Origin: a virus | Strand: one strand, 5' to 3' | Virus record (IMG/VR): IMGVR_UViG_3300021963_000609 | Location: 1-25,048 of that record | Length of the DNA: 25,048 nucleotides | Part shown: positions 8,962 through 25,048 of the stretch, piece by piece | Layout: each line of letters opens with the position of its first letter | Position numbering within the stretch: position 1 is the stretch's first letter | Made by a program: the position numbers and the translations under genes | Notes under the pieces: model-generated | Told to the model about the DNA's origin: nothing | Seen by the model: the letters and a program-made list of their open reading frames with translations, nothing else | The model's database searches: none

Positions 8962-9143
8962 GTGAAGGTTTTAGTGAAGAACAAATTGAAGTTGCCATTA
9001 ATAAAAATGAACTTCAAAAAGTATTAAAGAAATATAAGAAAATCAAAAAGTATATGAAATCTCCTCTTTTTGCCATCAAAACACTTGATGGAACTGAAAA
9101 TTATGTCAGTCAACTTATGAAAGAATCTGAGGAGAATGGGTAA
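8958..9143 (+). CDS. small charged hypothetical protein
   Basis: A 61-residue protein rich in Lys and Glu, helical through residues 7-33 (EEQIEVAINKNELQKVLKKY). Its ATG overlaps the previous stop as ATGA and its 3' end overlaps the start of speD by eight bases. It has no recognisable domain. The tight coupling on both sides is the main support that it is a real gene. Confidence 0.65.
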   Translation: MSEGFSEEQIEVAINKNELQKVLKKYKKIKKYMKSPLFAIKTLDGTENYVSQLMKESEENG

Positions 9144-9462
9144 GCATTATTTGTTAAATTTGTATGGGTGCTCGTTTGTTCTTTTGAATGACGAGCGCTG
9201 CCTTATAGACTTACTAGAACATGCTGCAACATCTAGTGGAGCAACAGTAGTTCAAACTATTTTTAAAAAATTTGATCCACAAGGTGTTACAGTAATTTGT
9301 TTGTTATCAGAAAGTCATATTAGTATTCATACATGGCCTGAAGAAGGTAAAGCAGCCGTGGATGTTTATACATGTGGAGATTGTGATCCTAAGATTGGTT
9401 GTGATATCATCATAAAACAACTATTTGCAACGGATCATAAACTTACTTATATTGAGCGTTAA
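9136..9462 (+). CDS. speD: S-adenosylmethionine decarboxylase proenzyme
   Basis: SpeD makes decarboxylated S-adenosylmethionine, the aminopropyl donor for spermidine synthesis. It is a known cyanophage auxiliary gene. The 108-residue frame has the prokaryotic class 1b layout: autocleavage between Glu59 and Ser60 (SESHISIHTWPE), which makes the pyruvoyl group, the proton donor His65 and the catalytic Cys80 (YTCGDC). The spacings match Thermotoga SpeD (Ser63, His68, Cys83). The ATG at 9136 has GAGGAG just upstream and overlaps the preceding gene by eight bases. Polyamines may stabilise phage DNA or the infected photosynthetic cell; that purpose is inference. Confidence 0.95.
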   Translation: MGKHYLLNLYGCSFVLLNDERCLIDLLEHAATSSGATVVQTIFKKFDPQGVTVICLLSESHISIHTWPEEGKAAVDVYTCGDCDPKIGCDIIIKQLFATDHKLTYIER

Positions 9463-10459: not shown

Positions 10460-10640
10460 AGATCTGACAGCATTTGAAAGAGCACTTGCTCGCTTTGGAG
10501 ATAAAGTTCAATACATTGTTGGACTCGAAATTTCTAATAAAATTTCGCCAGAAATGGCATATCAAGAAATTAAAGAAATGATGAAAGAACTTAAACGTTT
10601 GCGTAAAAAAGAAAAAAATAACTGGGAGAATGATGAATGA
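10452..10640 (+). CDS. conserved small cyanophage protein
   Basis: A 62-residue helical protein starting MYEDLTAFERALARFGD, with a basic C-terminal helix (KEMMKELKRLRKKEK). GGAGG lies six bases before the ATG, which decides the start against 10416. It overlaps the previous gene by eight bases and the thyX start as ATGA. I recall relatives in T4-like cyanophages upstream of thyX; no function is known. Confidence 0.7.
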   Translation: MYEDLTAFERALARFGDKVQYIVGLEISNKISPEMAYQEIKEMMKELKRLRKKEKNNWENDE

Positions 10641-11308
10641 ATAACCAAATTAAACTAATTGCTATTACTCAAGGTGCAGGTGATCTTATTAACCAAAATG
10701 CACAAGAAGTTATTTCTTACATTGCTCGCGTAAGTAATCCAAACAACCAACTCAACTTTGATACTGCAGCAGGTCTCCTTCGTTATTGTATTAAGCATGA
10801 ACATTGGAGTATCTTTGAACATGCTTATATGACTTTGGAGATTAATACTACTCGTGGTATCGCGGCTCAAATTCTCCGGCATAGGTCTTTCACATATCAA
10901 GAATTTTCACAACGATACGCTGATACAAATCTTTTATCGAATCGTCCAGAGATTCCTGATCTTCGTAGACAAGATACTAAAAACCGTCAGAATTCAATTG
11001 ATGATTTTGGTGATTTTGTAAAACTTAAAATGCAAGGAGAAATCTCAGAATACTTTGCACAGGGTCAACAACTTTATAATAAACTTCTTGAAAAAGGTGT
11101 GGCAAAGGAATGTGCAAGATTTGTATTGCCACTCGCAACACCGACAAGAATTTATATGACCGGTTCGTGCCGCTCCTGGATACATTATATTAAATTGCGT
11201 TCTGCAAACGGTACGCAAAAAGAACACATGGAAATCGCTGAAGGATGTAAATTGATTTTTAATGATCAATTTGAAGACGTTTCTAACGCACTTGGGTGGA
11301 GAGAATGA
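10637..11308 (+). CDS. thyX: flavin-dependent thymidylate synthase
   Basis: ThyX makes dTMP from dUMP with FAD, NADPH and methylene-tetrahydrofolate, feeding phage DNA synthesis. The 223-residue frame has the ThyX signature RHR-x7-S at residues 81-91 (RHRSFTYQEFSQR). Upstream is a typical EHWSIFEHAYMTLEI segment, and downstream the dUMP- and FAD-binding region (RFVLPLATPTRIYMTGSCRSWIHYIKLR). Length is normal for viral ThyX. The ATG overlaps the previous stop (ATGA), so translation is coupled. It is the main enzyme of the operon started at the nested promoter near 10243. Confidence 0.95.
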   Translation: MNNQIKLIAITQGAGDLINQNAQEVISYIARVSNPNNQLNFDTAAGLLRYCIKHEHWSIFEHAYMTLEINTTRGIAAQILRHRSFTYQEFSQRYADTNLLSNRPEIPDLRRQDTKNRQNSIDDFGDFVKLKMQGEISEYFAQGQQLYNKLLEKGVAKECARFVLPLATPTRIYMTGSCRSWIHYIKLRSANGTQKEHMEIAEGCKLIFNDQFEDVSNALGWRE

Positions 11309-11748: not shown

Positions 11749-12498
11749 ATGGCAAGAAAGAAAATCGCGAATCCAGTCCCATTTGGAACGAGCAATCGTC
11801 AAATGAAGAGAAAGAAACCAATTAATCTTGATTACATGAGGAAGATTGAGCCTCTAACAGATAATCAAGAAAAACTCTTCAAATCATATGGACTAGAACA
11901 AAACCTGGTTGCATATGGAGCAGCAGGTACAGGAAAAACGTTTATTACGCTTTATAATGCATTGAAAGATGTACTTGATGAAAGATCAGTTTATGAAAAG
12001 ATTTATCTTGTTCGTTCTCTGGTAGCAACACGAGAGATCGGATTCCTTCCAGGAGACCATGAAGATAAATCAAGTCTTTATCAGATTCCATATAAGAACA
12101 TGGTTAAGTACATGTTTGAAATGCCTGACGACTCTTCGTTCGAAATGTTGTATGGAAACCTCAAAACTCAAGGAACGATTAGTTTTTGGAGTACTTCTTT
12201 TATTAGGGGAACTACTCTGGACAATGCAATCATTATTGTAGATGAATTTCAGAACCTAAACTTCCACGAACTTGATAGTATCATTACTCGTGTAGGTGAA
12301 AACTCTAAGATCATGTTCTGCGGTGATGCAACTCAGTCTGACCTTGTTAAAACAAATGAGAAAAATGGTATCATCGACTTTATGAGAATTTTGAGATTGA
12401 TGTCTTCTTTTGATATCATTGAGTTTGGTGCCGAAGACATTGTTCGTTCTGGTCTCTGTAAAGAATATATCCTCGCAAAAATGGAATTGGGTCTCTGA
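11749..12498 (+). CDS. phoH: PhoH-like ATPase
   Basis: A 249-residue P-loop ATPase of the PhoH family, common in cyanophages. The Walker A motif GAAGTGKT is at residues 57-64 and Walker B IIIVDEFQN at 161-169, with a sensor-like CGDATQSD after it. The segment YLVRSLVATREIGFLPGD is a PhoH hallmark. PhoH proteins are predicted RNA-acting helicase-like ATPases; the link to phosphate starvation comes from E. coli regulation and has not been shown for phages. It ends TGATG, overlapping the next start. Confidence 0.95.
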   Translation: MARKKIANPVPFGTSNRQMKRKKPINLDYMRKIEPLTDNQEKLFKSYGLEQNLVAYGAAGTGKTFITLYNALKDVLDERSVYEKIYLVRSLVATREIGFLPGDHEDKSSLYQIPYKNMVKYMFEMPDDSSFEMLYGNLKTQGTISFWSTSFIRGTTLDNAIIIVDEFQNLNFHELDSIITRVGENSKIMFCGDATQSDLVKTNEKNGIIDFMRILRLMSSFDIIEFGAEDIVRSGLCKEYILAKMELGL

Positions 12499-14515: not shown

Positions 14516-15475
14516 ATGTCCTTTGAATCACTTAAAAAGCAATCTAAACTCGGTTCTCTCACTGATAAACTGGTGAAAGAAGTTGAGAAAATGAACACTG
14601 GTTCTAGTAGTGCTGATGATCGCTATTGGAAACCTGAAATGGATAAAACTGGAGTCGGATCTGCAATCATCCGATTCCTTCCCGCACCAGAAGGAGAAGA
14701 CCTTCCCTGGGTTAAAATGTATTCCCATGGATTCCAAGGTCCTGGTGGTTGGTACATTGAAAATTCTTTGACTACGATTGGACAGAAAGATCCCGTTTCG
14801 GAGTATAATCGCAGTCTTTGGAATAGTGGAAGCGATAAAGATAAAGAAACTGTTCGTAAGCAAAAGCGTAAACTTTCCTACTACAGCAACATTTATGTTG
14901 TGAAGGATCCTGCTCACCCCGAGAACGAAGGTAAAGTCTTCCTGTTCAAGTTTGGTAAGAAGATCTTTGATAAGATCCTCAATGCAATGCAACCAGAATT
15001 TGAAGATGAAGAACCCATCAATCCTTTTGATTTCTGGAGTGGTGCAAACTTTCGTCTAAAGATCCGTAAGGTTGAAGGTTATTGGAACTACGATAAATCT
15101 GAATTTGATCGTTCAAGTCCTCTTCTTGAAGACGATGATGCTCTCGAAGCTATTTGGAAGAAAGAGTATTCCTTGTCTGCTGTTATTGCACCTGATCAGT
15201 TCAAGACATATGAAGAACTTGAGAAGCGCATGAACTATGTTCTTGGTATTGGTAAGACTGCACCCAAGACCGCTTCATTCGATGAAGAGGAGCAATACGA
15301 ATCTTATATTCCTAAGAAGAATAAAGAAGAAGATGTAATGGCAGAACTTGAAGAATCATATCGTAAGAGTAAGTCAGTTGAACCTTCTCTTCCTAAGATC
15401 ACCAATTCTGTTGATGAAACGGATGAAGATGAAGATGATGCTCTGTCTTACTTCCAAAAACTTGCCGAGGATTGA
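14516..15475 (+). CDS. 32: single-stranded DNA-binding protein gp32
   Basis: A 319-residue gp32, the replication and recombination single-strand binding protein. The basic N-terminus (SFESLKKQSKLGSLTDKLVKEVEKM) is the cooperativity domain. The central core has the ADDRYWKPEMDKTGVGSAIIRFLPAP start and KIFDKILNAM, NPFDFWSGANFRLKIRKVEGYWNYD segments. The C-terminus is acidic (DETDEDEDDALSYF), the arm that contacts partner proteins. It has no cysteine at all, so the zinc site of T4 gp32 (three Cys and one His) is missing. GGAG precedes the ATG. A strong terminator follows, inside the convergent gene. Confidence 0.95.
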   Translation: MSFESLKKQSKLGSLTDKLVKEVEKMNTGSSSADDRYWKPEMDKTGVGSAIIRFLPAPEGEDLPWVKMYSHGFQGPGGWYIENSLTTIGQKDPVSEYNRSLWNSGSDKDKETVRKQKRKLSYYSNIYVVKDPAHPENEGKVFLFKFGKKIFDKILNAMQPEFEDEEPINPFDFWSGANFRLKIRKVEGYWNYDKSEFDRSSPLLEDDDALEAIWKKEYSLSAVIAPDQFKTYEELEKRMNYVLGIGKTAPKTASFDEEEQYESYIPKKNKEEDVMAELEESYRKSKSVEPSLPKITNSVDETDEDEDDALSYFQKLAED

Positions 15476-18342: not shown

Positions 18343-19284
18343 ATGGGTGCCCCCAATCCTAAAGCAAGGTCTGTTAGTAATATTAAAGCAAAGTTATTGC
18401 AACCAGCATTAACTTCTACTTTTGAATGTTACTTTGCAATACCTAACACATTTCCTTCGATTTCACAGGATACTGTATCCAGTTTTATAAGTAAATCTGT
18501 TCCAGTAACAACGGATCTCAGTGATCTACTTACTCTCTCATGTTCAGACGCGACGCTTCCTGGATCTCAACTGGCAACTCATGAATTAAATAATGACTTT
18601 ACAGGAGTTACACAACGTCATGCATACAGAAGATTGTATGATGACAGAGCAGATTTTACATTCTATGTGAATAATACATACACTCAAATTAGATTGTTTG
18701 AAAGATGGATGCAATTTATTTCTGGTGAGCAGAATGCCACATCTGCAAATTTGAATTCTTTTTATAGAATCATGTATCCTAGAACATACAAGACTACAAT
18801 ATACATCACTAAATTTGAAAAGGATATTGCAGTTCCAGGAAAGGCACCTTTAGAACCAAGCAGTCAAGGTAGAAGTAAACTTATATACTCTTTCTTTAAT
18901 GCTTTTCCAATTTCTATAACCTCAATGCCAGTTTCGTATGAGGCATCACAACTTTTAAAATGTACAGTTTCATTTTCTTATGATCGATATGTTACTGAGA
19001 ATAAGCGAGGAACAGATGCTGCAGGAACTGCTCCTCCATCTGCAAGTGGAGTACCTGATCCAATCAATATTAGTCCTGAACAACAGGCAGTTTTGAATAG
19101 TAATTCTATTTTCAACACAGGCCAAACTCTTAACTTTGGTGTTGAACCAATAGAAGTTTCGAATAATCTATCACCAAATCAATTCAATATATCCCCAGGA
19201 ACTCTTTCTAATACTGGTGCAGGAACCATAGCAGAATCTTCAAGAATTACTAGACAACTTGCAGATGCCCAGAACATTGCCTAA
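18343..19284 (+). CDS. 54: baseplate tail-tube initiator gp54
   Basis: A 313-residue tube initiator on which gp19 tail tube polymerises. The core LSCSDATLPGSQLATHELNNDFTG, then QRHAYRRLYDDRADFTFYV, FERWMQFISGEQN and FFNAFPISITSMPVSYEASQLL is the gp19/gp54 tube fold. The C-terminal 90 residues are Ser/Asn/Pro-rich and likely flexible. The start (MGAPNPKARSVSNIKAKLLQPALT) fits the family. Transcribed from a late promoter shared in a divergent arrangement with gene 4. Confidence 0.9.
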   Translation: MGAPNPKARSVSNIKAKLLQPALTSTFECYFAIPNTFPSISQDTVSSFISKSVPVTTDLSDLLTLSCSDATLPGSQLATHELNNDFTGVTQRHAYRRLYDDRADFTFYVNNTYTQIRLFERWMQFISGEQNATSANLNSFYRIMYPRTYKTTIYITKFEKDIAVPGKAPLEPSSQGRSKLIYSFFNAFPISITSMPVSYEASQLLKCTVSFSYDRYVTENKRGTDAAGTAPPSASGVPDPINISPEQQAVLNSNSIFNTGQTLNFGVEPIEVSNNLSPNQFNISPGTLSNTGAGTIAESSRITRQLADAQNIA

Positions 19285-19315: not shown

Positions 19316-20035
19316 ATGCCTTTACCAAAAATTGCTACTCCAACTTATGAGTTGGAATTGCCTTCGACTGGACAGACTATAAAATATAGACCATTTTTAG
19401 TCAAAGAAGAAAAACTATTAGTAATTGCATTAGAATCAGAAGACACAAAACAAATTACTACTGCAATTAAAACAGTTATTAAAAATTGTATAGAGACTAA
19501 AAATATTAAAGTTGAATCTCTCCCTACATTTGATATTGAATTTTTATTTTTAAACATTCGTGGAAAGTCTGTAGGAGAAGAAATTGAGGTTAATATTATT
19601 TGCCCAGATGATGAAGAAACTACAGTTCCTGTGAAAATTAATGTAGATGATATTAAGGTTCAAAGAAATGATGATCATGTAAATAAGATCAAACTTGATG
19701 ATAATTTGATTATGGAAATGAAGTATCCTTCTCTGGATCAATTCATTAAAAATAATTTTGATATGTCAAACAACAATGCAATGGAACAATCTTTTGAACT
19801 TGTTGCTGCTTGTGTAGATAAAATTTATAATGAAGATGAAGTATGGAGTTCTGCAGATGTGACTAAAAAAGAACTTATGGAATTTTTGGATCAAATGAAT
19901 TCGTCTCAATTCAAACAAATTGAGCAATTCTTTGAAACTATGCCAAAGTTGTCACACACTATAAAAGTGAAGAATCCAAATACTGAAGTTGAGAGTGAAG
20001 TAGTTCTTGAGGGACTGTCAAGTTTTTTCGCATAG
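19316..20035 (+). CDS. 26: gp26 baseplate hub / tail assembly chaperone
   Basis: A 239-residue protein of the T4 gp26 (T4_baseplate) family, needed for baseplate hub assembly. MPLPKIATPTYELELPSTGQ, YRPFLVKEEKLLVIA and FDIEFLFLNIRGKSVGEEIE are typical, and the C-terminal half is acidic and helical. AGGAG precedes the ATG. The last codons run AGT-TTT-TTC-GCA-TAG, which contains a T_TTT_TTC slippery heptamer (20023-20029). A -1 shift there would continue in frame into the ORF at 20047, giving a fusion of 301 residues. See the findings for the hairpin downstream. Confidence 0.85.
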   Translation: MPLPKIATPTYELELPSTGQTIKYRPFLVKEEKLLVIALESEDTKQITTAIKTVIKNCIETKNIKVESLPTFDIEFLFLNIRGKSVGEEIEVNIICPDDEETTVPVKINVDDIKVQRNDDHVNKIKLDDNLIMEMKYPSLDQFIKNNFDMSNNNAMEQSFELVAACVDKIYNEDEVWSSADVTKKELMEFLDQMNSSQFKQIEQFFETMPKLSHTIKVKNPNTEVESEVVLEGLSSFFA

Positions 20036-20053
20036 CACTGGTCCACATGGACC
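20023..20053 (+). promoter_or_regulatory. candidate -1 programmed frameshift signal
   Basis: The slippery heptamer T_TTT_TTC lies at 20023-20029 in the gp26 frame. After a ten-base spacer there is a hairpin GGTCC (20040-20044) and GGACC (20049-20053) with loop ACAT. The -1 frame is open from 20011 through to 20220. The stem also contains the ATG of the downstream ORF. Confidence 0.6.
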
Positions 20054-20220
20054 TTGAAAACTACTTTCGACTTAATTTTTCGTTAATGCAGTACCATAAA
20101 TATTCATTGACAGAAATTGAAAATATGATACCTTGGGAAAGAGACATTTATGTTGAACTTCTCAAGCAACATATAGAGGAAGAAGAGTCCAAACAACAAC
20201 AACAAAGTAATGGCTGGTAA
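20047..20220 (+). CDS. 51: gp51-like hub assembly protein / chaperone extension
   Basis: A 57-residue ORF beginning MDLENYFRLNFSLMQYHKY, then SLTEIENMIPWERDIYVELLKQHIEEEE. A short helix-rich protein with a P-W-E-R-x-I-Y motif, directly after a gp26-type gene and before a tape-measure-like gene, fits the second half of a tail assembly chaperone pair. T4 gp51 occupies this place. It could be made independently from ATG 20047 or as a -1 frameshift extension of gp26. Its ATG has no good Shine-Dalgarno and lies in a hairpin, which favours frameshifting. It overlaps the next gene by eleven bases. Confidence 0.6.
   Translation: MDLENYFRLNFSLMQYHKYSLTEIENMIPWERDIYVELLKQHIEEEESKQQQQSNGW
20095..20102 (+). 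promoter_or_regulatory. possible late promoter
   Basis: CATAAATA inside the gp51-like ORF, 108 bases upstream of the tape-measure-like gene. It may be a promoter or simply coding sequence (HKY codons). Confidence 0.3.
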
Positions 20221-22735
20221 TCCACCAAATGTACCTACTGAAAATATTGATGAGGTAATTTTAAGATTACTAGCCTTAGAACCTAATGAGGTTGATGAAC
20301 TTGACTATGAAACGTATCGCCAATATTTAAAAGAACTTTTAATTGAGATTACCTCTGGAAAGAGAAAAATTGATAGTGGTGAAGCAGAACAAATTAAAAA
20401 CGAATTTGTAAGAGTAAAGGGAAAAAAAGGTAGATTTAAAATATCATCCAAAAAAACTAAAGTAACTGCAAACGGATTAGGACTTGGAGGAATCCGTAAG
20501 CAGATGAAGGGCGCACAGCAAAGAATAATGCTGATGCCTGTTGGTGGAATTCCTAAAGATAAAAAAGAAGTAAAAGAAAAAGTAGAAACTGTTTCTAAAA
20601 AGAAGAAGACAGAAAGTGATCCTTTAATTCGTATTAGTAAGACACTTGACTCTATTTTAAAAACACTTATCAGTATTGATAAGGAAAATAAAAAGAAGAG
20701 TGATACTGATAGAAGAGAATCTGAACGTAAAAGAAGAGGATCTAGAGAAAAAGAATTAGAATCAAAACCACTTGAAGGAATTAAAAAAGCAATATCCAAT
20801 ATCCTCAAACCCTTTCAGTCCATTTGGGATACGATACTCAACTTTATTGGAAATATTATTCTTGGTAGAATCTTAATAAAACTGATTGATTGGTTTGCAG
20901 ATCCCAATAATCAAGGTAAGATTCAAAGTATCATACGATTTTTTAGTGATCACTGGCCAACACTATTAGCATTATACTTAAGATTTGGAACGGGTATTGG
21001 TAGGTTTATTGGAAAACTTACTAAGATCTTAGTTAAAGGTACTGTAAAATTAGTAGGACTTGCCGCTAAACTTGCTGCCAAAGCGGGATTAAAAGGTTTT
21101 GGAAAAGTTGCTAGTTTTATTGGGGGACCAAGAGGAAGATTATTAGCAACTGGAATTGGAATTGCTGCCGATGTTGCTGTAACTGCAGGTACTGCTGCTG
21201 GAATTGGTGGACTTGCAAGTGGTGATATAAAAATTCCAGGATTCTCTGGTGGTGGATGGAATAAAGGTTTTGGTAATCTGTTTAGTGGAACTAAAAATTT
21301 CTTTGGTAATATGTTTAGTGGTCTTGTAAAAGGACCAAAAGGAAAAGATAAAGTACCTGCGATGCTTACTGATGGTGAGTTTGTTGTGTCTGCAGGTGCT
21401 GTAAAGAAATATGGAGTTGATACTTTTGAATCAATGAATGCGGCTGGCGGGGGTACTAATGTTCCTCAGATTGCATCTGGAATGACTTTTGCTGAAGGTG
21501 GTGGTTATATTGGTGGTATTGGAGAATTAAGAAGAAAGTATGATGCAAAACACGGAGAAGGTGCATATGATAAAGAAAGTGCTAGAAGAAGAGCAGTTGC
21601 GAATGCAACTCCAGAGAGATATAATCTACCTCCACTAAAAACTGGAAATCAAGAATATTTAAAACAACTTAAAGAGAGAGCGAAAAAACCAGCTCCAAAG
21701 GCTCCAATAGCTCCACAAACTCCAAAGACCCCACAAATAAACATTAAAGCACCAACTTTTACACCAATAGTAGATCCAAAAAGAGAAGCAGAAAAAGAAG
21801 CAAGGAAAAAAGCAAGAGCAGAATATACTAAAATTATAACCAATATGGATCATCCAGATTATGATAAGGCGTGGAATGATCCTAAATTTATGGATAATCT
21901 TAGAGAAAAATATAGAGCACAAGCATCTGCACCAACACCTTCAGCAACTAAACCGGGAACAGGATATACTCCATATGTTTCTAGATTTGCTGGTGCTCGC
22001 GATGCTGCACATGAAAGGGCATCGAGAATTCAAGGATCTAGACCATATGTAAATCCTTTTAGTCCAGGTGGAATGTTTGGTGGTCCAAGAATGCAAGCAA
22101 GAACTGATTATGCTAAATCAAAAGGTAAATATTATTCCTCTTCGGATCAAAAAACATATGGAAATTATAATGACGCAATGGCTGCAAAAAAATCAAGAAT
22201 GACTTCTCTTGCATCACAACAAAGACTGAATAAGTTAAGTTCACAAGGTGCAGGTCCAAAAACTGGTAGAGGAATAAGATATACGACAGAATCAGTTGCA
22301 CAGGCTAGAGAGGATGCAAAACGTGGTGGATTTATGGGGCAACTTGGTAGGGGATTTACTAGAATGTTTTCTGATCCAAACAGTAAGCTTGGTAAAGAGA
22401 GACTTGCTAAGTTAGATGCTGCAGACAAAGCATCTACAGCAAGAGTAAAGCAAGCAGGTGCAGCATCGATTGGTAGATACTATTCATCATCTGATGGAAA
22501 ATATTATAAAGATTATAATGCAGCAGTTCTTGCTAGAAAACAGAGATTAAAATCTGGAGTAAAACCACTTCCTAAACCAAAACCAAAACCACAAGTTGCT
22601 GGTGGAGGAATGGGTGGGAAAAGAGGAAGTGGATCAAGTCCTTCTAATAGTCAAAAACCAAAATCTCAAAATCCAACTCATAGTGCAAAATCAACAAGAA
22701 CTGCAAGAAGCACCTTGGGAGTCAATAAGAAATAA
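20210..22735 (+). CDS. large virion protein, tape-measure-like
   Basis: An 841-residue protein. Order of parts: acidic and charged N-terminus; a Lys/Glu-rich coiled-coil-like stretch (about 110-195); hydrophobic helices (about 200-330: ILNFIGNIILGRILIKLIDW, KLVGLAAKLAAKAGLKG, TGIGIAADVAVTAG); the segment KVPAMLTDGEFVVSAGAVKKYG (381-402), which I know from C-terminal parts of tape-measure proteins; then a Pro-, Lys- and Gln-rich tail. A YYSSSD-x-K motif repeats at about 640 and 757. Position after a gp26/51 pair is where a tape measure belongs, since these chaperones act on it. T4 gp29 is shorter (590), so the exact role in this phage is inference. Confidence 0.7.
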   Translation: MAGNPPNVPTENIDEVILRLLALEPNEVDELDYETYRQYLKELLIEITSGKRKIDSGEAEQIKNEFVRVKGKKGRFKISSKKTKVTANGLGLGGIRKQMKGAQQRIMLMPVGGIPKDKKEVKEKVETVSKKKKTESDPLIRISKTLDSILKTLISIDKENKKKSDTDRRESERKRRGSREKELESKPLEGIKKAISNILKPFQSIWDTILNFIGNIILGRILIKLIDWFADPNNQGKIQSIIRFFSDHWPTLLALYLRFGTGIGRFIGKLTKILVKGTVKLVGLAAKLAAKAGLKGFGKVASFIGGPRGRLLATGIGIAADVAVTAGTAAGIGGLASGDIKIPGFSGGGWNKGFGNLFSGTKNFFGNMFSGLVKGPKGKDKVPAMLTDGEFVVSAGAVKKYGVDTFESMNAAGGGTNVPQIASGMTFAEGGGYIGGIGELRRKYDAKHGEGAYDKESARRRAVANATPERYNLPPLKTGNQEYLKQLKERAKKPAPKAPIAPQTPKTPQINIKAPTFTPIVDPKREAEKEARKKARAEYTKIITNMDHPDYDKAWNDPKFMDNLREKYRAQASAPTPSATKPGTGYTPYVSRFAGARDAAHERASRIQGSRPYVNPFSPGGMFGGPRMQARTDYAKSKGKYYSSSDQKTYGNYNDAMAAKKSRMTSLASQQRLNKLSSQGAGPKTGRGIRYTTESVAQAREDAKRGGFMGQLGRGFTRMFSDPNSKLGKERLAKLDAADKASTARVKQAGAASIGRYYSSSDGKYYKDYNAAVLARKQRLKSGVKPLPKPKPKPQVAGGGMGGKRGSGSSPSNSQKPKSQNPTHSAKSTRTARSTLGVNKK

Positions 22736-25048
22736 TGGCTAAACTACTTCCTTCTTCAAATTACTCTATCGTAAAATCATCAAAGTCTGCTGTAATAAAA
22801 GCAGACAAACTTTTGAATGTAAAATCTAAAACGGCAAGAGTTGGTGTAAATGAAACTAGGAATGAACCTCCTAAACTTTTAGAAGATACCCTTACAAAGA
22901 TTGAACGAAAAGTAATAAAGATTGATAAACTTTTAAAAGATTCATTTGTATTTTCGAAGAAAGAATCCGAAAAGAAAAGGAAGTCTGATGAACAAGAAAA
23001 ATTTAAATCAAAGGAAAGAGATTTAGAGCAAAAGAAACTTCCCAAAACAAAAGGAGTAAATTTGCCATCTCCACCAAAGATGGGATTTTTGGATTGGATT
23101 AAGAACTTTATTACTCAAACTATTCTTGGATTTTTTGCAGTTCGTTTAATTGATTTCTTACCACAACTATTAAAGATTCTTCCAGTCATTATTAAGGTTG
23201 GAGATTTCTTTATTGATGTTGGTGGTAAGATGCTTGATGGTCTTATAACTTTTGTTGACTGGGGTTATAAAGCAATCGATGGAACACGTCAATTTATAAA
23301 GCAACTTGGTGGAGAAGGATTAGCACAGAACTTTGATAAGTTTGCTGGTGCGATTGATAACGTTATTGAGATTGCAATTATTGCTGCCCTTGCAACTGCT
23401 GATAGTGGTGGGTTTGGTGGTGGTGGAGGTCCTGGTGGTGGAAGAGGAGGATATGGAAACAATTATAGTGGTGGTAAAAGAGGACTTGATGGAGATTTTA
23501 GAAGAGGAAGATTTGGTGGTTATGTTCGTGGATTTGGGATAGAGAGTGAAGCTGGTAAAAGTGCTCAGGGATTTAATTTATGGAAACAACAGGCAAAAGG
23601 TGGAGAATTAACTACTTCTGGATTGAGAAAAGCAGAAAATGATATAATGAAACGCTACTTCCAAAGATATGGAAGAGATGCGTTTATTCAAAGATTTGGT
23701 GAAGAAGGATTAAAGAAATTACCCGGTGGAATGCAAAGAGGACTTCTCCAAAGAGGTGCTCGTAGTGCTTTCACTGGACTTCTTGGTAAGGGTGGTGCAA
23801 AAACAGTTCTTAAGTTTATAAAACCATTTACAAAACGTCTCCCTATCATTGGTGGATTGTTAGACTTTGGAATTTCTGTTGCTCTTGGAGAGAGTCCTGG
23901 TAGAGCAGCATTTAAAGCAATAGGTGCAACACTGCTTGGTGCTATTGGTGCTGCTGTTGGTTCTGTTGTACCTTTTGCTGGAACATTTTTAGGTGGTCTT
24001 GCTGGTGGTTTTGTTGGTGATGCAGTTGGTGGTGCGTTGTATGATATGTTCTTTGGTAATAAAAAACCAAAAGGAAAAGTAGTAAAGGCAGCGGGTGGCG
24101 GAAAACCGTCTACCCGTGGAGGAAAACCTGTAAGTGGTCCTGCAAAAAGAACCGTCAAGAAAAAGAAAACACCGAGAACTTTAAAGGCAACACCTTCTAG
24201 ATTAAGACCTGGTGCAACTGTTGGTGGAGAAAAACAAATAAAGAAAATATATCCTGAGTCAAAGGACAAATCAAAAATGAGTCCTTTTGATTTCTTAAAG
24301 AATTCTTATAATACATTTGCAAAGTCATCTGGTCTTGGTGCATTAGTTGCCCTTGCAATTAAACCTATAATGGGTGATAAACCAACATATGCAGATTATA
24401 AGAATGCAGGAGCTGGGATTAATAATTGGATGAACCAATCTATTGGATCCGGAACTTTTGCGTATGCTGGTGGTGGTGAAGTTAAAATGGAAAGCATTGT
24501 TTCTGGAGAAGACTATAGTGATGTAATTGCAAAGTCACTTCAAGATTCCGTTGCTCCTCAAGTTGATAAAACTATTCAAGACTTGATGAAACAGTTGATT
24601 TTAAAGAAAGCAGAACCAGAACAAAAAGAAAAAAAACCATCAGAGGGAATTGATGGTGAGGATGGAGGTACTGGTGGAGGAGGTTTAACTGCTGGACAGT
24701 GGGGACCTTTATTAGATGTAATTGCTGCGGGAGAAGGCGGATACGAATCTGTTAATCCTAGTTTTACAATACCGGGTTTAACAAAAATGACAATTGCCGA
24801 TGCTTGGTCTCAGGCACAAAGGATGGGGAGAGCAAAAGGTGGTTCTGGTGCGATGGGGAGATATCAATTATTATCAGATCCTGTTGGAAGAGCAAAATCT
24901 GCTGGATTGGATCCTTATAAGGATTTATTTACTCCAGCAAATCAAGATAAAATTGCAGTTCATATTATTGAAAATATAAGGAACGGAAAAGAATGGATTG
25001 CTGGAAAAATTAGCGACCAAGATTTTCTACAAGGAATTGCAAATGAAT
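22735..25048 (+). CDS. large virion protein with C-terminal lysozyme-like domain (3' partial)
   Basis: The ATG shares its A with the TAA of the preceding gene, and the frame is open to the window edge (771 codons visible). A basic charged N-terminus is followed by a hydrophobic segment at about 115-160 (NFITQTILGFFAVRLIDFLP). Next come a Gly-rich linker (about 222-262), a second hydrophobic Gly/Ala segment (about 395-440), basic Pro-rich linkers and, from about residue 655, a lysozyme-like domain. That domain shows LLDVIAAGEGGYES (candidate catalytic Glu667), GAMGRYQLL and FTPANQDKIAVHII. The pattern resembles lambda-type or GH104 lytic enzymes. It may open the host peptidoglycan during DNA entry. 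The N-terminal part shares a W-x2-I-x-NFI...ILG...LIDF/W pattern with the preceding protein. Confidence 0.75.
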   Translation, partial: MAKLLPSSNYSIVKSSKSAVIKADKLLNVKSKTARVGVNETRNEPPKLLEDTLTKIERKVIKIDKLLKDSFVFSKKESEKKRKSDEQEKFKSKERDLEQKKLPKTKGVNLPSPPKMGFLDWIKNFITQTILGFFAVRLIDFLPQLLKILPVIIKVGDFFIDVGGKMLDGLITFVDWGYKAIDGTRQFIKQLGGEGLAQNFDKFAGAIDNVIEIAIIAALATADSGGFGGGGGPGGGRGGYGNNYSGGKRGLDGDFRRGRFGGYVRGFGIESEAGKSAQGFNLWKQQAKGGELTTSGLRKAENDIMKRYFQRYGRDAFIQRFGEEGLKKLPGGMQRGLLQRGARSAFTGLLGKGGAKTVLKFIKPFTKRLPIIGGLLDFGISVALGESPGRAAFKAIGATLLGAIGAAVGSVVPFAGTFLGGLAGGFVGDAVGGALYDMFFGNKKPKGKVVKAAGGGKPSTRGGKPVSGPAKRTVKKKKTPRTLKATPSRLRPGATVGGEKQIKKIYPESKDKSKMSPFDFLKNSYNTFAKSSGLGALVALAIKPIMGDKPTYADYKNAGAGINNWMNQSIGSGTFAYAGGGEVKMESIVSGEDYSDVIAKSLQDSVAPQVDKTIQDLMKQLILKKAEPEQKEKKPSEGIDGEDGGTGGGGLTAGQWGPLLDVIAAGEGGYESVNPSFTIPGLTKMTIADAWSQAQRMGRAKGGSGAMGRYQLLSDPVGRAKSAGLDPYKDLFTPANQDKIAVHIIENIRNGKEWIAGKISDQDFLQGIANE

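Follow-up and report, generated by a model that had tools for sequence, protein, structure and literature searches.

A probable programmed −1 ribosomal frameshift as the source of short and long tail assembly chaperones in a marine T4-like phage

The locus considered here raises the question of whether a small gp51-like reading frame, which overlaps the end of a gp26-like gene, is a gene in its own right or the C-terminal part of a longer protein, made by ribosomes that slip back by one base. The window, i.e. the whole stretch of DNA analysed, comprises the 25,048 nucleotides of the virus record IMGVR_UViG_3300021963_000609. It carries two photosystem reaction-centre genes (PF00124; 1004-2149 and 4605-5666; psbA/D1-like and psbD/D2-like by eye), with an endonuclease VII-like ORF (PF02945; 2256-2693) after the first of them; S-adenosylmethionine decarboxylase, ThyX, PhoH and a gp32-like protein, encoded at 9136-9462, 10637-11308, 11749-12498 and 14516-15475, are typical auxiliary and core genes of cyanomyoviruses. 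The phage, a virus of ocean cyanobacteria, very probably makes a short and a long tail helper protein by means of a one-letter slip backwards. The features on which the argument depends are as follows.

18343..19284, plus strand: tail tube protein gene, just upstream (PF23849, 1e-14; phrog_45, 1.8e-36)
19316..20035, plus strand: gp26-like gene, predicted short form of 239 aa (TAC-N / G-like), ending in TAG at 20033-20035
20009..20014, plus strand: GAGGGA, Shine-Dalgarno-like, possible weak stimulator about 10 nt 5′ of the heptamer (anti-SD duplex energy)
20023..20029, plus strand: slippery heptamer T_TTT_TTC in X_XXY_YYZ phase (conservation in homologues)
20029..20220, plus strand: predicted −1 frame extension of 63 codons downstream of the shift (TAC-C / T-like; RIALVHMDLENYF...SNGW), ending in TAA at 20218-20220
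20040..20053, plus strand: downstream hairpin GGTCC(ACAT)GGACC, probable stimulator (covariation, synonymous null)
20047..20049, plus strand: ATG, the annotated gp51 start in relatives, partly within the hairpin loop
20210..22735, plus strand: tape-measure-like ORF, downstream (weak tape-measure PHROG matches, best 7.4e-4)

The gp26-like ORF ends AGT TTT TTC GCA TAG, and the heptamer named in the initial annotation is found at its proposed place and phase ahead of this stop; the −1 frame is likewise open from 20011 and runs through the ATG at 20047 to the TAA, its end overlapped by 11 nt by the tape-measure-like ORF. A short form and a C-terminally extended long form can be read from the sequence of this one gene. 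The gp26-like ORF matches PF12322 (T4_baseplate, 6.2e-77) and, with its first 232 positions, phrog_150 (9.1e-82), whilst the −1 ORF by itself aligns with phrog_634 from position 63 onwards (2e-27) and with the last 40 positions of phrog_150 (2.7e-5). PF12322 occurs in a single copy in the record, and a pair of the T4 kind is accordingly not seen. The order of tail tube, 26/51 and tape-measure-like genes places the pair where a tail assembly chaperone is expected, between tube and tape measure. Two long ORFs follow the chaperone gene at 20210-25047, both with weak matches to tape-measure PHROGs and some to endolysin.

Within the AT-rich window, TTTTTTC is not rarer than chance (18 occurrences on both strands, versus 21.7 expected from shuffles); rarity was therefore rejected as evidence, the heptamer by itself proves nothing, and comparison must decide. 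A close set of homologues was assembled from 80 IMG/VR loci with gp26 relatives of 70-87% identity, the gene end being readable in 79; all 79 have TTTTTTC exactly at −10 from the stop, with the −1 frame open. For a wider set, further scans were made from Pelagibacter, Prochlorococcus, Vibrio, Aeromonas and Sinorhizobium phage proteins and annotated phage records, giving 263 loci with a stop-closed gp26 ORF, which clustering at 85% reduced to 118 representatives. T_TTT_TT[CTA] stands at the homologous spot in 114 of these, as TTTTTTC in 101, TTTTTTT in 7 and TTTTTTA in 6 (102, 7 and 6 with the window included; n = 115); a locus with a truncated gp26 (L101) was not counted as a real loss of the heptamer. 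The initial annotation had staked its reading on the persistence of heptamer and frame relation in relatives, and both sets bear it out. Since the sequences are related, the counts do not represent independent events, and a probability computed from independent codons (p^n = 4e-19) was dropped as a significance value.

Position and phase of the heptamer are also kept in P-SSM2, P-HM1, Stenotrophomonas phage Mendera, Aeromonas phage phiWae14, Acidovorax phage ACP17 and the Vibrio phages QD01 and EniLVp02. Where the zero-frame stop has drifted, leaving the heptamer at −7, −13, −16 or −31, its position in the protein (GLxxFF) is unchanged. The base before the T-run is always T, irrespective of the codon to which it belongs (AGT, TCT, GAT, AAT or GCT). 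In some marine lineages the second slip codon encodes Leu, written as TTA, with the slip retained; at the seventh base, Rhizobium phage P10VF has T_TTT_TTG and Agrobacterium phage Atu_ph04 has TTT.

The four representatives that depart from T_TTT_TT[CTA] (BX-1, K364, Maynard and Serratia 3M) are Ackermannviridae or a likely relative. When the gp26 ends from this group are taken together (loci L088, L091, L092, L096, L286, L290 and L291), BX-1, Maynard, K364, Serratia 3M, 1.255.O, Sajous1 and D510 have no T_TTT_TTY, but carry N_NTT_TTY at the same −10 position, in the forms A_ATT_TTC, G_GTT_TTC, C_GTT_TTT, A_CTT_TTY and G_CTT_TTT. G_GTT_TTC is the slip site of phage T7 gene 10. A start codon for the −1 ORF is absent in Maynard, Sajous1 and 3M, whilst the Vibrio members have an in-frame ATG that overlaps the stop.

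The stretch between heptamer and ATG reads as protein-coding sequence in the −1 frame. Codon entropies at positions 1, 2 and 3 are 1.11, 0.59 and 1.50, respectively, and, with the second position lowest and the third highest, this is the pattern of a real reading frame; coding selection on the overlapping −1 ORF extends as far as the slip site. Among the residues conserved ahead of the ATG are an Arg at codon 0 (96 of 115) and a His at codon 5 (91 of 115).

A GC-rich hairpin had been proposed ten bases downstream, and a 5-bp stem, GGTCC-ACAT-GGACC, indeed begins 10 nt past the heptamer. Sequence on the 3′ side of the heptamer has a mean MFE of −7.36 kcal/mol, compared with −3.53 kcal/mol for synonymous −1 recodings (mean z −1.85; 87% of sequences below zero; n = 115). 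In the 50 nearest sequences all five pairs show changes on both sides, with 84.5% of cells paired; neither the paired fraction nor the covariation score is matched by any slid register or shuffle (0 of 500 shuffles as high). The stems of other groups lie in a different register, and it is therefore the hairpin as a feature, rather than its exact pairs, that is conserved. The hairpin is a probable stimulator of frameshifting. Upstream, the GAGGG Shine-Dalgarno-like stretch gives an anti-SD duplex of −6.68 versus −5.50 for the synonymous null, with 72% of sequences below the null; this signal is weak, as a conserved LEG protein motif yields most of it, and GAGGGA is at most a possible, weak stimulator.

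Comparison with T4 informs on the nature of the two products. T4 genes 26 (minus) and 51 (plus) lie on opposite strands, and their products (208 and 249 aa) both belong to PF12322 and phrog_150, gp26 covering the first part of the family only, and gp51 its whole length together with phrog_634. A profile made solely from the fusions inferred here aligns with T4 gp51 over residues 16-246, across the junction (E 1.2e-13), and with T4 gp26 over residues 3-207, ending at the junction (6.3e-24). A profile of the −1 tail matches gp51 of T4, RB43 and Aeromonas phage 31 and finds T4 gp26 at background level only (E 9.3); the match corresponds to residues 207-245 of the 249 of T4 gp51, not to gp51 end to end. 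At the end of gp26, no slip site is present in T4 (GAG TTC TTT GAG TTA CTA TAA) or in a Karamvirus (GAA TTC TTC AGG TAT CTG TAA). On these sequence comparisons T4 encodes, in separate genes, the short form (gp26) and the in-frame long form (gp51) of a single family. The profile and family matches thus indicate that homologous short and long products come from two divergent genes in T4, which has no slip site, and from one gene with a shift in the phage of the window. The initial annotation had described T4-like phages as having separate genes 26 and 51, which a shift here would unify with the lambda-like chaperones; the link to lambda is supported, but had already been published, whilst the view of 26 and 51 as a split pair does not hold, since in T4 they are opposite-strand paralogues of which gp51 corresponds to the full-length fusion.

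Two further observations concern gp51 genes. In RB43 (L274, 1610-4187) tail tube, 51, 26 and 25 follow one another on a single strand, whereas 26 and 51 of T4 are divergent; the RB43 layout looks like an intermediate of a duplication. In another locus (L284, 2480-3300) an indel breaks the middle of a T4-like gp51 gene, far from where the two chaperone parts join, and this looks like a mutation or an assembly error.

Three alternative explanations can be weighed against a ribosomal shift. That usually implied by the annotation of relatives is a separate gp51 gene, in which ribosomes would stop at the TAG at 20033 and re-initiate by translational coupling at the ATG at 20047, giving free gp26 and a 57-aa gp51. 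The ATG lies 11 nt past the stop, a similar ATG is retained in most cyanophage homologues, and TAATG overlaps occur in some Ackermannviridae that lack the canonical heptamer. However, ATG, GTG and TTG are all absent from the first 11 −1 codons in 35 of the 114 representatives (e.g. S-CAM8, ACG-2014j and HTVC008M); as the C-terminal part is nevertheless conserved, it can be reached there only from gp26, i.e. as a fusion. Re-initiation also fails to account for the conservation of the −1 codons ahead of the ATG, for T4 gp51 being a full-length fusion and for the invariance of the T6 run, and we regard it as unlikely. The ATG at 20047 is probably not the main start of gp51; in cyanophages that keep such an ATG, some independent initiation may occur beside the fusion.

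The T6 run, invariant in those same 114 of the 118 representatives, might alternatively act at the level of transcription, with polymerase slippage giving access to the −1 frame. Six Ts are, as a matter of general knowledge, short for polymerase slippage, both the phase of the heptamer (X_XXY_YYZ) and the covariation in the hairpin that follows it suit ribosomes, and the Ackermannviridae retain the place with four or five Ts only; this explanation is thus very unlikely. It could also be argued that the heptamer is an accident of a Phe-Phe pair, which is indeed conserved as protein sequence, and that gp51 is a non-functional overlap. The codon choice at the site is, however, sharply unlike that for Phe-Phe elsewhere in these genes, where the pair is written TTTTTC in 5 of 112 cases as against 102 of 115 slip sites. 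Phe is replaced by Leu only via TTA or TTG, which keep the slip, the −1 protein is itself conserved, and the silent change to TTC TTC occurs in none of the 79 close relatives, though many would be expected from an accident. We give this last explanation next to no credence.

With a high degree of confidence, then, we read the locus as one tail assembly chaperone gene that yields two products via a −1 slip, and the signal at T_TTT_TTC is, on the comparative evidence above, almost certainly one for programmed −1 ribosomal frameshifting. We infer that slippage occurs at an efficiency at which the majority of ribosomes would stop at the TAG at 20033 and release the short form. In a minority, both tRNAs would shift their pairing back by one base on U_UUU_UUC, aided by the hairpin, and translation would continue into CGC AUA GCA, producing a 301-aa gp26-gp51 fusion (...SSFFRIALVHMDLENYF...). 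The predicted junction-spanning peptide is FFRIALVHM (SFFRIALVHM); the junction peptide to be expected for the window in mass spectrometry is SFFRIALVHMDLENYFR.

In lambda, a short chaperone, gpG, and its −1 extended form, gpGT, work together with the proteins of the tape measure and the tail tube (PMC5009743). The lambda slip site is G_GGA_AAG, in contrast to the T_TTT_TTC of the window, whose phage has a contractile tail. We know of no sequence similarity between the lambda proteins and the pair described here. By analogy, the tape measure protein would be coated by many copies of the short form and a few of the long form, whose −1 encoded tail would bring in subunits of the tail tube; neither form would remain in the finished virion.

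Structure prediction lends some support to the chaperone assignment. In a VIA-align comparison, the AF2 model of gp26 (pLDDT 88.4) ranks 3FGX, the HK97 tail assembly chaperone 2OB9 and YqbN 3KLU first, with Z scores of 8.0, 7.9 and 7.4 over 84-86 residues and the next row at 5.4, although a Z near 8 is reachable by unrelated folds. The match spans most of these small domains but only residues 1-96 of gp26; 2OB9 and 3KLU, the best structural matches to this N-terminal domain, correspond to about residues 1-88 and share 6-10% identity with it. Foldseek against the PDB also gives 2OB9 as its first match, at an E of 0.64, and the E-values for the chaperone match (0.64 and above) are not significant. 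The gp26 profile, run against PDB sequences, returned no phage protein, the best hits being unrelated helicases (E 0.11). For the long form, the only model is one of T4-type gp51 (six sequences, pLDDT 82.9), for which the PDB gave no clear match, with the HK97 chaperone at rank 4 (Z 3.7). The modelled fold is supportive of an HK97-type chaperone identity, but not conclusive. Taken with gene order and the homology to T4 gp26 and gp51, it favours the G/GT-type chaperone pair put forward in the initial annotation.

Vladimirov, Gautam and Davidson (Virology 2022) reportedly identified the tail assembly chaperones of T4-like phages. As cited in the PRFect paper (PMC10885494), that study found some T4-like phages to have one short gene and one long fusion gene; as cited in the paper on phage Adele (PMC12846349), it described the TAC-N genes of T4-like phages as carrying slippery poly-T sites. 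From these citing accounts, the window is a further instance of the same family with the same kind of signal, and the central claim has very likely been published already for some T4-like phages at least; by the same accounts, the family had been brought together with lambda-like chaperones before. The present comparison may go beyond this earlier work, as there represented, in the extent of the conservation, in the argument from absent start codons, in the hairpin and in the variant of the Ackermannviridae. In phage Adele itself, which belongs to a different phage family (Vandenendeviridae/Andersonviridae), the short-form gene is predicted to shift by −1 at the poly-T site GTTTTT (PMC12846349); this site resembles the Ackermannviridae variant N_NTT_TTY, not T_TTT_TTC.

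Across the wider family (Kyanoviridae, Emdodecavirus, Pootjesviridae, KVP40-type Vibrio phages, Menderavirus, Busanvirus and Ackermannviridae) frameshifting may be ancestral, with degenerate, T7-10B-like sites in the Ackermannviridae, T4 26/51 as a derived duplication and RB43 as an intermediate; we consider the chances of this reading to be evenly balanced.

In public records, the −1 ORF is unannotated or started late at an internal ATG in ACP17 (L089), ACG-2014j (L093), S-CAM8 (L094) and 3M (L096), and the same fault is found in Atu_ph04 (L287) and in loci L083, L084 and L087.

The cyanophage "gp51", often missing or late-started in records, is probably no separate gene but the final part of a protein made by frameshifting. 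Reannotation of the −1 ORF would mend many cyanophage entries, a correction which touches one of the commonest groups of marine phages. The function of the essential T4 protein gp51 was reportedly called unknown in a 2010 review; on the relationships described here, gp51 gains a clear place as the long form of the tail assembly chaperone. The locus also offers a simple test case for the replacement of a frameshift by gene duplication in a phage lineage and, if frameshifting is indeed ancestral, the duplication in T4 would have frozen the two products.
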